Shown: positions 1,366-28,021 of the stretch, piece by piece | How the letters are laid out: every line of letters starts with the position of its first letter | How positions within the stretch are numbered: the stretch's first letter is position 1 | Assembly (NCBI RefSeq): GCF_000166715.1 | Contig: NZ_AEMI01000037.1 | Span: 1 to 41,561 of the forward strand | Source: Leuconostoc gelidum subsp. gelidum KCTC 3527 | Lineage (GTDB): Bacteria; Bacillota; Bacilli; Lactobacillales; Lactobacillaceae | Direction of reading: 5' to 3' | DNA length: 41,561 nucleotides | The notes under the pieces: generated by a model | Seen by the model: only the letters and a program-made list of their open reading frames with translations | Databases searched by the model: none | Told to the model about the DNA's origin: nothing | Translations under genes and position numbers: made by a program

Positions 1366-1397
1366 TGTCAGACACCTCCAAATTTATTTTGTGAATC

Positions 1398-1523
1398 AAG
1401 AAGAAAAGTGGATAAAGAACCTAATCTTTACCCACTTCAACACTTGCGATCCATCTCGGATAACTGTATCTGCCAAGCAACTTGGTCACTTGGCGAGAAG
1501 CGGGTGCTCCTACTTGTTCAACA
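1398..1523 (-). ncRNA. infC operon leader with attenuator (L20-leader type)
   Basis: The leader between promoter and infC contains a terminator: a 10-bp stem (1426-1435 with 1408-1417, one G-U pair) followed on the minus strand by TTTTCTTCTT. Its 5' arm also overlaps a segment (1430-1438) that can pair over nine positions with 1497-1505 upstream. The two structures therefore exclude each other, as in an antiterminator and terminator switch. A further GCCAAG/CTTGGC stem lies between. L20 is known to control this operon by premature termination in Bacillus. L20 as the ligand here is inferred from position. Confidence 0.7.
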
Positions 1524-5744: not shown

Positions 5745-5986
5745 TAAAAACAAAAACGTCCCTCTAAGTCAATAGACTTAAAGGGACGTTTCACCGTGGT
5801 ACCACCCAAGTTTAACATGTTTAACCATGCTACTTAAATGACAGCTATCGGTGTCACCCGGATGTTTTTCATTACTTACTCAACCACCACTCAAAGGTAG
5901 TCTCTCACGCACAAATCACCCATTTTCACCAAACATGAGCTCTCTTTATCATATGTACACTTGAGTTGTCCTTATCAACGTTACTG
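5745..5986 (-). ncRNA. T-box leader of thrS (Thr)
   Basis: The conserved T-box (minus-strand GGGTGGTACCACGG, about 5795-5808) lies just before a long terminator stem (5754-5770 with 5775-5791) and a T-run. The 5' part holds Stem I with the conserved TTTGGTGAAAA apical segment. An ACC triplet at 5896-5898 sits where the specifier would lie and matches threonine. Uncharged tRNA-Thr should stabilise the antiterminator and let RNA polymerase through to thrS. Confidence 0.9.
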
Positions 5987-5992
5987 AAAATA

Positions 5993-20257: not shown

Positions 20258-20552
20258 AAAACAAAAAATCCCGCAGTTTGAACTTAATCAAACTGCGGGA
20301 CGACTTATCGTGTTACCACCCGGTATTTGTATGTTTAAAAACATACCTCATACAATCGCCATGCTTTAAAAAATTTAAAGATAGGAATTGCTGTTGCTAT
20401 AACGGGCACACCCGGTCATTGCTCACAACGCATTAGCGTATGCTCACCATGGCGTATCTCTCCAAGACCATTTTCATATCATCGCGCAATCTACTTTCAC
20501 CAAACATAGATTCTCTTAGTGTGCTCACGATATTACTTATCTCTTCACTGTT
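20258..20552 (-). ncRNA. T-box leader of the permease-mmuM operon (Met)
   Basis: The T-box GGGTGGTAAC (minus strand, 20312-20321) precedes a perfect 13-bp terminator (20269-20281 with 20288-20300) with a T-rich tail. Stem I has the conserved TTTGGTGAAAG apical segment. An AUG triplet followed by A at 20475-20477 lies at the specifier position, opposite an AGTAATATCG strand. Uncharged initiator or elongator tRNA-Met should turn the operon on. Confidence 0.9.
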
Positions 20553-20558
20553 GAGAAT

Positions 20559-20662: not shown

Positions 20663-21805
20663 TTAAATCATTTCCAAATGCAATTGTTCTGGTTTTGCCC
20701 ACCCCATTTTGCGCATCACACGATAACCCACAAATGACACAACAACTGGTACGACAACACCAACACCCATATAAGCAGCAAACGCAACTGGATTTGATCC
20801 TGCCAAAGCCAAAGGGACAATAAACGAATTAAATCCAATACCCGCCATAGCAAAAGGTGCTGTGACATGAAATACTAATGTAGCAATTGGGGCTGCAATG
20901 GCTGCACCAATCATTGGTGGAATAATCAATGCTGGATTTTTAGTCAAATTTGGAAATTGAATTTTCGGCGTCACAATACCCTGTGCGATCGTTGCACCAA
21001 TTTTATTTTCTTGAAATGACATTGCGGGAAAACCAACAAACACGGCTGTTGTACCGATTAATATTGCACCAGCAGCTTGAGGTGACGTCACCCCTGTTGC
21101 ACCAATGGCCACAGCTAGTGCAGCCGCTGAAGCTGGCGTCATTGTCATAGCACCAAATACCATCGCAACAATTGCTGTACCAATAATGGGATTCACAGCC
21201 ACACTAGAGGCGATAAAATGTCCAACAGCCACCAATGCTGGTGTCGTCACCATCGCTAAGTAATACCCGCTCACTGTACCCACAATTGTTGTAGCAGCTG
21301 GCACAATCACCATATCCAACGGTGTTTTACCACTCAACCATTTTCCAAACAACACTGCAATAATAGCTGCGATGACAGCTGAAATCGGTTGTCCAGTTGT
21401 TATAATCGCTGAACCTGCTGCCTGTGTACCAGCATAGCCTGTTGCCGTAACACCTTGAACCGCTGTATTACTAAAAAAGACAGCGTTAGCACCGACAGTC
21501 GATGCAGCCATAGCACTAAACATGACCATTGTATTTGTTTTCATCTGCGATGCGACCGCTGCACCAAACGCAGCTGGTAACATAATTTTTGTGATTGCAC
21601 CCATCTGCACCATTGGTGCCCAATTGATAAATCCGGCAATAGTTTGCAATAACAATCCCATTCCCAAAGTCACTAAAATAGCATTTGAAACCGCTGCCGA
21701 TGTTTTATACACAATATCGCGAATAGATTCTTCAGCTTCTCCAACTTTTGCTTGGATCGCTTCTTTATTAATTTGTGTTCCTTTATTAATTGCATTTTGT
21801 GCCAT
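20663..21805 (-). CDS. EIIC-like membrane protein (PTS_EIIC_2 family)
   Basis: The 380-residue protein has about eight to ten hydrophobic segments rich in Ala, Gly and Val, with MKTNTMVMFSAMAASTVGAN and GAMTMTPASAAALAVAIGATG. It resembles the stand-alone EIIC-like family usually named PTS sugar transporter subunit IIC. No EIIA, EIIB or sugar gene is near, so phosphotransfer is doubtful. Only the leader tells about function: it encodes a leucine-rich peptide followed by an attenuator, which points to amino-acid control. AAGGAG precedes the ATG. No clear terminator follows before the Met T-box promoter. Confidence 0.8.
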   Translation of the reverse strand: MAQNAINKGTQINKEAIQAKVGEAEESIRDIVYKTSAAVSNAILVTLGMGLLLQTIAGFINWAPMVQMGAITKIMLPAAFGAAVASQMKTNTMVMFSAMAASTVGANAVFFSNTAVQGVTATGYAGTQAAGSAIITTGQPISAVIAAIIAVLFGKWLSGKTPLDMVIVPAATTIVGTVSGYYLAMVTTPALVAVGHFIASSVAVNPIIGTAIVAMVFGAMTMTPASAAALAVAIGATGVTSPQAAGAILIGTTAVFVGFPAMSFQENKIGATIAQGIVTPKIQFPNLTKNPALIIPPMIGAAIAAPIATLVFHVTAPFAMAGIGFNSFIVPLALAGSNPVAFAAYMGVGVVVPVVVSFVGYRVMRKMGWAKPEQLHLEMI

Positions 21806-21854
21806 AATCCTAATCTCCTTTTAACTTACACTTCAATTGAGCATCGCAATCATT

Positions 21855-22089
21855 GGAGAAAAAGAAAAACGCCCCAACGATTGCTCGTTAGGACGTTTTC
21901 ACGTCATATTCCTAACCAGCTACATAAACTTACTTTTAAAGTCCAGTAGTTGATCTTGCTCAAATAACAACCAACTAGACTCAAATGAGAAGAAGGTTGC
22001 GGAGAAGTGCACTATTCACTTGTTTATAAAAAGTTTTAATCATGTTGTCTCTCCTTGTTATTGAGCAATTGCTTGCTTACTTCTTGATG
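21855..22089 (-). ncRNA. Attenuator leader of the EIIC-like gene
   Basis: From a predicted start near 22089 the RNA carries a 20-codon ORF, a hairpin (21972-21980 with 21942-21953, with a small bulge), an antiterminator (21911-21916 with 21887-21892 and an inner ACGT/ACGT stem) and a 15-bp terminator (21866-21880 with 21885-21899, two G-U pairs) followed by a T-run. Antiterminator and terminator share 21887-21896. An extra inverted repeat joins 22055-22068 to 21956-21970. No T-box sequence is present. Confidence 0.8.
21981..22043 (-). CDS. Leader peptide, leucine-rich, 20 residues
   Basis: The ATG at 22043 has AGGAG seven bases upstream. The peptide begins MIKTFYKQV and ends in ALLRNLLLI, with five Leu codons (CTT, CTC) among the last eight, just before the stop and the first hairpin of the attenuator. 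Control codons at this place make the ribosome stall when charged tRNA is scarce. Leucine is the best guess. The single Ile codon before the stop could also count. Confidence 0.75.
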   Translation of the reverse strand: MIKTFYKQVNSALLRNLLLI

Positions 22090-22095
22090 AATAAT

Positions 22096-22124
22096 ACTAT
22101 ACAGATATAAATTTAAAATGTCAA
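22096..22124 (-). promoter_or_regulatory. Promoter of the EIIC-like gene
   Basis: TTGACA (22119-22124) and TATAGT (22096-22101) on the minus strand, spacer 17: the strongest promoter match in the window. Confidence 0.85.
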
Positions 22125-22149
22125 TAGTTTTATTTTTATCATTATAAAT

Positions 22150-22182
22150 ACATAAAAAAGACTGATTCTATCATCAGTCTTT
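22150..22182 (-). terminator. Terminator of upp
   Basis: A 10-bp stem (22157-22166 with 22173-22182) with a 6-nt loop and a T-run on the minus strand, just past the upp stop. Confidence 0.85.
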
Positions 22183-22192
22183 CAATCGTAAA

Positions 22193-22822
22193 TTACATTG
22201 TCCCAAACAATCGATCACCAGCATCACCCAATCCAGGAATAATATAGCCGTTTTTATCCAAGCCGTCATCTAACGATCCTGTATAAATATCAACGTCAGG
22301 ATGGGCTTCCTGAACTGCCTTAACCCCTTCAGGTGCTGAAACTAAAGTAATCAATTTAATATGTTTTGCCCCACGCTTTTTCAAAGCAACAATAGCATCT
22401 TTTGCTGAACCGCCAGTAGCAAGCATCGGATCAACTAATAACACGTCCCGCTGATCAATATCTTCTGGTAATTTAATAAAGTATTCTACCGGTTCCAAAG
22501 TTTCTTCGTCACGATACATACCAATATGTCCAATTTTAGCTGCAGGAATCAACTGTACAATCCCGTCCACCATGCCTAATCCAGCACGCAAAATAGGTAC
22601 AACAGCTAGTTTTTTGCCTGCCAATTGCTTTTTAGTCGTTGTCGCCACTGGTGTTTGCACAACAACATCTTCCAATTGCAAATCACGACTTGCTTCATAT
22701 GTCATAAGCATTGCAATTTCATCAACAAGCGCTCTGAAATCTTTTGTCCCGACATTCTTATTACGAATCATTGTTAGTTTATGTTGAATCAATGGATGAT
22801 CCATTTCGATAAATTTTCCCAT
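22193..22822 (-). CDS. upp: Uracil phosphoribosyltransferase
   Basis: Salvages uracil with PRPP to UMP. The PRPP loop [15 protein letters not shown] (about residues 125-139) and the uracil-binding C-terminal segment [17 protein letters not shown] are intact, and 209 residues is the normal length. No ribosome binding site lies directly before the ATG. A short frame from 22863 ends six bases before it and might couple translation. An extended -10 promoter lies 70 bases upstream. Confidence 0.96.
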
Positions 22823-27099: not shown

Positions 27100-27335
27100 A
27101 CAATAAAAAACGTCCCTGTGTTTTACAACACAGGGACGTTTTCACGTGGTACCACCCAATTTTAGTTGTCTACAAGTAAACAACCCTCAAATCAGTATTA
27201 ACGGTCTGCACCGGTTAAACTTACTTAAATTTCAGTCCAACAAATTCATAACTGATTTAAAAGGCTACAGGGACGATCATCTCTAACCACCATGACTCGC
27301 TGCACGTATGTATGCCATTCTTATTGTGTTATGCT
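27100..27335 (-). ncRNA. T-box leader of ileS (Ile)
   Basis: The T-box GGGTGGTACCACGTG (minus strand, about 27144-27158) precedes a perfect 16-bp terminator (27107-27122 with 27127-27142) and T-run. A short Stem I with an ATGGTGG apical segment lies at about 27263-27300. An AUC triplet at 27275-27277 is a plausible isoleucine specifier. A long inner stem AAATCAGT/ACTGATTT follows. The leader begins right at the divIVA stop. I see no convincing separate promoter, so it may be read from the division operon. Confidence 0.88.
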
Positions 27336-27337
27336 TC

Positions 27338-28021
27338 TTATAATTTATTATCTTCGTTTTCACTTGCTTCGGGAAACACAACAATTGGCCCTTGCTCAGG
27401 AGCAGCTTCCTCATTTTCTGTTTCTGTAGAATCGGATTCGCTTGCTACCATTGACATAACAGTCTCATTTTCAATTGTTGCTATTTTATCAATACGATCA
27501 GCCGTTGCTTGTCCAATTGGCAAACGATGAACTGCTTCAGCTAAATCATCATTTTCTAATAGTTTACGCTGAAGTTCCAATAATTTCAAGAATGAATTTT
27601 TAAAATTTTCTACTTCAGTTCTTAATTCATTTTGCTCTTTAATCAGACCTTCATTTTCTTGTGCTAGGCTTGTTGCTTCAGCCTCAGCCTTTGTACGTGC
27701 ATCACTAATAATCTTTGTGGCTGCTTCTTGGGCATGTGTTAATTGCTTTTTTACTTCGCCATCGGCTTCTTGTCTCAAACGATCAGCGGCTTCTTGAGCG
27801 ACAAAAATTGATTGGTTGACTTGCTCACGTTTCGCCTCTAGGCCATCAACTTTAACTTGTAACTGTTCATTATCATTTAAAAGTTTATCACGTTCAGTAA
27901 TAATAGTTTCATAATCACCATTAACTTGATCTAAAAACGAATCAACTTCAGATGCAATATATGCACGTGAACCCTTTTTAGTAAATTCATGCTTCAAAAT
28001 TTCATCAGGTGTTAGTACCAT
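27338..28021 (-). CDS. divIVA: DivIVA family cell-division protein
   Basis: Coiled-coil protein that binds curved membrane at septum and poles and recruits other proteins. The N-terminal lipid-binding domain is present as LTPDEILKHEFTKKGSRAYIASEVDSFL (about residues 3-30; shown in part only as motif), followed by a coiled coil (about 35-165) and an acidic, disordered C-terminal tail. At 227 residues the length is normal for streptococcal and lactobacillar forms. It closes the division cluster after ylmH. Confidence 0.94.
   Translation of the reverse strand: MVLTPDEILKHEFTKKGSRAYIASEVDSFLDQVNGDYETIITERDKLLNDNEQLQVKVDGLEAKREQVNQSIFVAQEAADRLRQEADGEVKKQLTHAQEAATKIISDARTKAEAEATSLAQENEGLIKEQNELRTEVENFKNSFLKLLELQRKLLENDDLAEAVHRLPIGQATADRIDKIATIENETVMSMVASESDSTETENEEAAPEQGPIVVFPEASENEDNKL

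Follow-up and report, generated by a model that had tools for sequence, protein, structure and literature searches.

A putative leucine-responsive transcription attenuator upstream of an EIIC-like membrane protein gene in Leuconostoc gelidum, and related leader peptides in its clade

The window analysed here is a stretch of 41,561 nucleotides from Leuconostoc gelidum subsp. gelidum KCTC 3527 (contig NZ_AEMI01000037.1). On its minus strand, upp (22822-22193) and a gene encoding an EIIC-like protein of family PF13303 (21805-20663) flank a leader element. A promoter is followed by the Shine-Dalgarno (SD) sequence and ORF of a short leader, by alternative helices, by a terminator, and then by the SD and start of the EIIC-like gene. 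The parts are listed below.

22124-22096, minus strand: promoter TTGACA-17-TATAGT (-35 TTGACA 22124-22119, -10 TATAGT 22101-22096; 11 of 12 matches)
22061..22068, minus strand: segment 0, UUGCUCAA, 5' of the leader SD, complementary to the loop UUGAGCAA
22056-22051, minus strand: leader ORF SD, AAGGAG
22043-21981, minus strand: leader ORF MIKTFYKQVNSALLRNLLLI, 20 codons, stop UGA at 21983-21981
21987..22007, minus strand: control codons CTT CTC (CGC AAC) CTT CTT CTC
21994..21999, minus strand: segment 1, CAACCU, within the Leu codons, partner segment 2
21968..21981, minus strand: segment 2, AGUCUAGUUGGUUG, starting in the stop codon, partners segments 1 or 3
21956..21963, minus strand: loop UUGAGCAA between segments 2 and 3, partner segment 0
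21940..21954, minus strand: segment 3, AUCAACUACUGGACU, partners segments 2 or 4
21910..21923, minus strand: segment 4, GUAGCUGGUUAGGA, partners segments 3 or 5
21900-21865, minus strand: intrinsic terminator hairpin, 16 pairs, T-rich tail
21883..21895, minus strand: segment 5, terminator 5' arm, partners segments 4 (antiterminator) or 6 (terminator)
21870..21880, minus strand: segment 6, UCGUUGGGGCG, terminator 3' arm
21846..21856, minus strand: segment 7, CCAAUGAUUGC, 3' of the T-run, complementary to segment 6, in read-through RNA only
20663..21805, minus strand: regulated gene, PTS_EIIC_2 (PF13303) membrane protein, 380 aa

The original prediction had placed a consensus promoter here without naming a strand; it was found at that place on the minus strand, and the Leuconostoc and Periweissella relatives carry TTGACA with a TATA-like sequence at the equivalent place. 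Promoter-like sites as such were no more frequent around the element than in shuffled sequence (17 against 17.3 expected). The predicted 20-codon ORF with its SD is present too, and its peptide ends in LLRNLLLI. Five Leu among the final eight residues have a probability of 2.4e-4 in a random peptide at the Leu frequency of the window; one codon of the run in strain KCTC 3527 encodes Arg (CGC), not Leu. The terminator, described earlier as a 15-bp stem with a T-run, has 16 pairs and belongs to the minimum-energy fold of the leader. Between 20000 and 24500 we counted 10 terminator-like sites against 3.0 in shuffles, and a second one (22183-22156) separates upp from the leader promoter. None of 200 dinucleotide shuffles folded as well as the whole leader (z -3.75). 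The predicted antiterminator, GUUAGG (21916-21911) with CCUAAC (21892-21887), extends into the helix GCU-GUUAGGA / UCCUAAC-AGC and is predicted to be itself under the control of two further helices upstream.

These helices can form a relay of six segments, with pairs 1:2, 3:4 and 5:6 in a terminator state and 2:3 and 4:5 in a read-through state. The analysis demonstrates, at the level of sequence, a leader ORF, a terminator and a predicted chain of mutually exclusive helices. We propose that the element is a ribosome-mediated transcription attenuator sensing charged tRNA-Leu, and we put the probability of this reading at about 0.86. RNA polymerase would start near 22089 and a ribosome would translate the 20-codon leader. 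When leucine is ample, the ribosome at the stop codon would cover segment 2, so that 3:4 pairs, 5:6 forms and transcription ends. When leucine is scarce, the ribosome would halt at the first Leu codons and cover segment 1, leaving segment 2 free to pair with segment 3; segment 4 would then pair with segment 5, block the terminator and allow transcription of the EIIC-like gene. The read-through state may be aided by 6:7 pairing.

The leader was compared among 26 loci with an orthologous gene, found by a contig scan in Leuconostoc, Periweissella, Convivina, Fructobacillus and two further records; protein identity to L. inhae was 97%. In all 26 a short ORF with a Leu-run end precedes the gene, three of these ORFs (L054, L058, L059) having been placed by a second pass and not by the automatic one. 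In L052 the ORF is present, and the locus was excluded from the structure tests because its downstream part reads N. A covariance model built from 16 leaders (R1) matched all 19 Leuconostoc genomes directly 5' of the gene, own genome counted; at E <=0.1 it matched 34 of 201 family genomes, a count that includes weak matches and some antisense to the element. The checks proposed with the original prediction turned out largely as it expected, the leader being conserved in Leuconostoc and its neighbours with synonymous changes among the Leu codons. Most Leuconostoc rows have the run LLLNLLLI, encoded by CTC/CTT, whereas Fructobacillus has ALLLSLLC and similar runs encoded mostly by TTG, so that the Leu residue is kept and the codon is switched. 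CTT and CTC make up 14% of the Leu codons in 27 window ORFs, yet all five in the leader run of the window. TTA is the commonest Leu codon in those ORFs (45%); in 30 leaders the last 12 residues have 165 Leu codons between them, and a single one is TTA. In 16 leaders pN/pS was 0.21 in the final nine codons and 0.54 in the preceding ones, although base pairing also restrains the final codons; in 8 Ile leaders the contrast was smaller (0.57 against 0.77). Much of the conserved leader sequence belongs to the helices or to the end of the ORF. At the level of sequence, the suggestion that the gene answers to charged tRNA-Leu is well supported.

Pairing in 16 aligned leaders is consistent with both states. 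For the terminator state 95.7% of cells were paired and 4 pairs had changed on both sides, a count that none of 500 shuffles attained; for the read-through state (2:3, 4:5, 6:7) the figures were 95.3%, 3 such pairs and 10 of 500 shuffles. Controls in which the partners were slid by 1-3 columns gave 19-52%. The compensatory changes looked for in the hairpins thus exist in some number. The number of further pair types did not exceed that of shuffles for the read-through state (500 of 500 shuffles reached it) and barely did so for the terminator state (42 of 500). The most telling row is L. carnosum, in which altered segments 2, 3 and 4 retain both 2:3 and 3:4, and altered segments 6 and 7 retain 6:7. 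In the Fructobacillus alignment the chain is retained with other bases, and an antiterminator AGUAACU pairs with the GUAGUUAC stretch of the terminator arm. Pairing of segment 7 with segment 6 on the read-through RNA is suggestive (95.1% of cells in 16 leaders; 41 of 500 shuffles equalled its 2 doubly changed pairs). The complementary pair UUGCUCAA/UUGAGCAA, counted without a shuffle control, is present in the Leuconostoc leaders except that of L. fallax, where another segment-0/loop pair is possible (-10.0 kcal/mol).

The summed energy of 1:2, 2:3, 3:4 and 4:5 was judged against 200 dinucleotide shuffles of each leader. It outdid 199 or more of them in all 30 Leu leaders and in 16 of 18 Ile/Val leaders (46 of 48 together); the failures were L073 (21/200) and L074 (57/200). 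Helix 1:2 alone was the weakest (median z -1.24 in Leu leaders). Flexible windows were used, since fixed windows matched the Leuconostoc spacing and gave poor values for short leaders. A terminator was placed between leader ORF and gene in 48 of 50 leaders; in the Ile leaders L069 and L070 the scanner misplaced it, another hairpin with a T-run being visible by eye, and both were omitted from the energy test.

The original prediction called the EIIC-like gene an orphan, which undersold it. The same genome has a paralog (EIIC-B; the gene of the window is EIIC-A), 49% identical, whose leader MFTLNSYNFTNLITINVVIII is rich in Ile/Val (NVVIII), and similar leaders precede brnQ and suf genes. Among 21 loci with the paralog or distant homologs (L002 of the own genome and 20 chosen, L060-L079), 20 have a leader with an Ile/Val/Leu run; L077 has none. 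Across nine of these Ile leaders, 97.4% of cells were paired in the terminator state, and none of 500 shuffles attained the 8 doubly changed pairs. Their read-through state was weaker, with 85.3% paired and double changes not above shuffles (130/500).

Model R1 also matched 5' of a NicO permease gene (leader SLLYLLLS/N) and 5' of the Fe-S operon sufCDSUB, where the first gene encodes 287 aa and had no Pfam match over the cut-off. The suf leader of the own genome, MKITIRKSNNFAIVNLLLIC (L136), scored E 4.7e-10. By our criterion 9 of 12 suf loci have the leader, several of them with a poor SD, and sufC lies behind in all 12. Twelve NicO loci were examined: six have a leader (L139-L144), L150 a weaker candidate and L145 a degraded one, no leader was found in L146, L147 and L149 of the own genome, and L148 was left unjudged. 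Direct repeats AAGGACA-TTTTGTTCG lie just 5' of the NicO gene (e.g. L139, L141, L147, L149), present also where the leader peptide is absent, and are possibly a metal-regulator operator.

A second model from the Ile leaders (R2) matched 5' of a brnQ gene (PF05525, E 3.8e-120). As PF05525 is a branched-chain amino acid transport family, the leaders appear anchored to branched-chain supply. The 20 brnQ upstream stretches comprise 9 with Ile/Val-rich leaders, 5 with T-boxes on the gene strand and 6 with neither. Six of these leaders were found by the screen and three by eye (L200, L201, L206), with ends such as IIISIIIP and VVVSVVIR. The T-boxes are those of L196, L198 and L209-L211, three of five scoring below the gathering score. 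Two genomes, G046 (L196/L197) and G006 (L198/L199), have one brnQ behind a T-box and the other behind an Ile-rich leader peptide. With L206 left out, all 23 suf, NicO and brnQ leaders passed the shuffle test at <=1/200. By residue, the predicted family is thus of Leu type before EIIC-A and NicO, of Ile/Val type before EIIC-B and brnQ, and mixed before suf.

The reach of the family was probed at further loci. One low-score R2 match, L160, showed no leader; the ilv stretches L156 and L157 have no T-box at E <=0.01 and no leader peptide recognised before the genes. Among 30 distant Firmicute PF13303 loci, Rfam gave only tRNAs at gathering score in the 18 covered, and when all 30 were screened for ORFs over their whole length, the ORFs were scattered and none was taken for such a leader. 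By eye, no leader peptide was seen in seven Lactobacillus-type homologs (L027-L033), and no leader before the further PF13303 genes of the own genome, L003 and L004. The former share in part a 5' UTR motif near TTCTCATCATATTTTAATCATACATAG (common to L027, L028 and L033, partly alike in L029-L032). L003 (G000:C38:30069-31064) reads through one TAA.

These varied leaders bear on a different reading, in which a nascent LLLNLLLI would arrest its ribosome when a small molecule such as free leucine or an antibiotic is present, and would work through the same RNA relay. Arrest peptides are found in the ErmC and TnaC leaders, and the near invariance of LLLNLLLI in Leuconostoc would suit one here. However, the ends vary widely under one architecture, from ALLLSLLC and SLLYLLLS to NVVIII and IIISIIIP, the feature common to them is a stretch of branched-chain residues, which is what sensing of codon starvation would predict, and in Leuconostoc it is the rarer CTC/CTT codons that predominate. 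We consider an arrest peptide improbable, though it is the best of the alternatives, and favour attenuation by charged tRNA-Leu.

Ribosome positions were also simulated. In a first-switch simulation, for which the transcript was ended at segment 3 and the ribosome footprint masked, 21 of 23 leaders (of 48) had a probable 2:3 helix (about 0.6-0.9) with the A site on early run codons, and its probability dropped nearly to zero once the ribosome was at the stop codon; in Fb_durion 2:3 was 0.22 with the ribosome at the stop codon. In Cv_intes and L078 it was insensitive to ribosome position. In this model the first-switch simulation supports the 2:3 switch. With no ribosome on the RNA, 16 of the 23 had 2:3 at 0.5 or above; the model therefore predicts in many cases that an untranslated leader is read through, in which these leaders differ from the trp attenuator. 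The UUGCUCAA/UUGAGCAA helix may counteract such read-through in Leuconostoc.

When the terminator arm was simulated in 48 leaders, most gave a flat response to ribosome position, the leader of the window among them; the expected shift appeared in a few, e.g. Fb_durion, L1_55_11, L071 and L076. This flatness would agree with a constitutive terminator behind a chance ORF, a hairpin that trims expression and senses nothing, as would the place of the terminator in the minimum-energy fold. Such a hairpin would nevertheless leave unexplained why ORF, Leu residues and alternative helices are conserved over several genera and recur in independent Ile/Val versions, and the site at 22183-22156 already separates upp from the promoter. 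We regard this explanation as very unlikely.

Rfam was searched for 21750-22200 at E <=10 and gave 11 matches, all far below their gathering scores (best E 0.12). Neither a leucine leader, a leu-phe leader nor a T-box was among the 11, the presence of the leu-phe family in the library being unconfirmed; the relation to that leader raised in the original prediction was thus not seen among these matches. T-box RF00230 had no match in 21750-22200, while the three other amino-acid leaders of the window, named earlier as T-boxes, are such (E 3.1e-18 to 8.4e-16). The nearest leader type was PyrG_leader (23.6 bits against a gathering score of 65), and PyrG-type reiterative initiation was rejected. 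No leader family besides T-boxes was found in 16 EIIC loci, and in 20 brnQ stretches there was nothing besides T-boxes and one SAM riboswitch. The latter (L208, 249-341, plus strand) lies 5' of a brnQ gene on the opposite strand and therefore probably serves a divergent gene. That the element is a T-box, riboswitch or protein-binding leader merely containing a small ORF is the least likely explanation of all, for although T-boxes are frequent in the window and precede brnQ in 5 of 20 loci, neither T-box nor riboswitch is among the 11 matches, the relay works without an aptamer, and much of the conserved sequence falls within helices or the end of the ORF.

The EIIC-like product matched PF13303 (PTS_EIIC_2) at E 2.9e-68, with 230.8 bits against a cut-off of 28.9. 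It had no NCBIfam family at E 0.001 and no PDB sequence match at E 1, and its structure model (mean pLDDT 46.7) was too poor for comparison. BrnQ, which 59 of 81 family genomes have, is absent from the own genome at E <=1e-40; ilvC, which 5 of 19 genus genomes have, is absent from it at E <=1e-20. As the leaders form a branched-chain family, the EIIC-like proteins are probably concerned with branched-chain amino acid uptake, and judged by regulation alone the pair are candidate branched-chain amino acid importers. A Leu-switched and an Ile/Val-switched protein in a host without BrnQ and ilvC would fit an importer pair; other transporters are possible too. A protein without NCBIfam or PDB match would in this way gain its first testable function from its own regulators.

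We extend this tentatively, at somewhat less than even odds, to a wider model: the Leuconostoc clade would run a branched-chain regulon through paralogous attenuators, where relatives use T-boxes; EIIC-A (Leu) and EIIC-B (Ile/Val) would be a new PF13303 importer family making good this strain's lack of BrnQ and ilvC; and suf and the metal permease NicO would belong to the same starvation response. A tie between shortage of leucine and the assembly of Fe-S clusters was not expected. Branched-chain synthesis includes Fe-S enzymes, and one thought is that suf and NicO belong through these, though most of the searched genus genomes are without ilvC.

The relay resembles known systems in several respects. 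The his attenuator of E. coli and Salmonella has segments A-F, with A:B, C:D and E:F against B:C and D:E. It is likewise a six-segment relay, for another amino acid and in another host, and the EIIC leader has in addition a possible seventh segment 3' of the T-run. The leu operon leader of Lactococcus lactis and the Rfam leu-phe leader have a leucine-rich leader peptide in Lactobacillales as well; their target is biosynthetic, and no such family is among the 11 Rfam matches. T-boxes bind tRNA directly and need no leader ORF. Those before brnQ share aminoacylation sensing and the target gene with the brnQ leader peptides and differ in the direct binding of tRNA. Since some brnQ loci have a T-box and others have a leader peptide, the swap of one sensing system for another can be studied there.

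In Staphylococcus aureus, one paper describes an attenuator of the ilv-leu operon with a leucine-rich peptide of 26 aa, Leu and Ile codons and a downstream terminator; ribosome stalling is predicted, promoter activity increases on Leu depletion, and attenuator predictions for Lactococcus and Streptococcus are cited (PMC5794164). It resembles the EIIC leader as a Firmicute leucine-rich leader peptide with a terminator. It controls biosynthesis (ilvD operon), whereas the EIIC leader precedes a transporter-like gene, and its antiterminator is proposed to trap the poly-U tail, while that of the EIIC leader takes the 5' arm of the terminator, a comparison made by description (PMC5794164). His leader peptides in Firmicutes are reported in two further papers (PMC2965389, PMC9413887), one of which gives T-boxes for the his genes of Leuconostoc (PMC9413887). 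These leaders show the same classical attenuation in gene families that use T-boxes elsewhere, and differ in concerning histidine, his genes and other groups (PMC2965389, PMC9413887). The available part of PMC8632094 has no mention of Leuconostoc.

The claim of an undescribed regulatory system thus holds for the family and fails for the mechanism, as leader-peptide attenuation in Firmicutes, a leucine-rich case included, has been published (PMC5794164, PMC2965389). A full-text search, with most subscription journals outside its coverage, gave no description of such a leader family with these targets or in this clade, and it returned no paper naming the leu-phe leader and none naming PTS_EIIC_2. 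So far as searched, the family is new and its mechanism an ordinary, known one. With it, a group in which T-boxes are common would also have classical attenuators across a whole clade.

Two minor observations concern other leaders of the window. Its T-boxes at 20293-20557, 5779-5987 and 27129-27345 (minus strand) score 89.1, 85.9 and 79.7 bits against a gathering threshold of 93, so that default Rfam annotation would miss all three. An L20 ribosomal leader at 1394-1521 (minus strand) scores 53.4 bits against a gathering score of 58.7.
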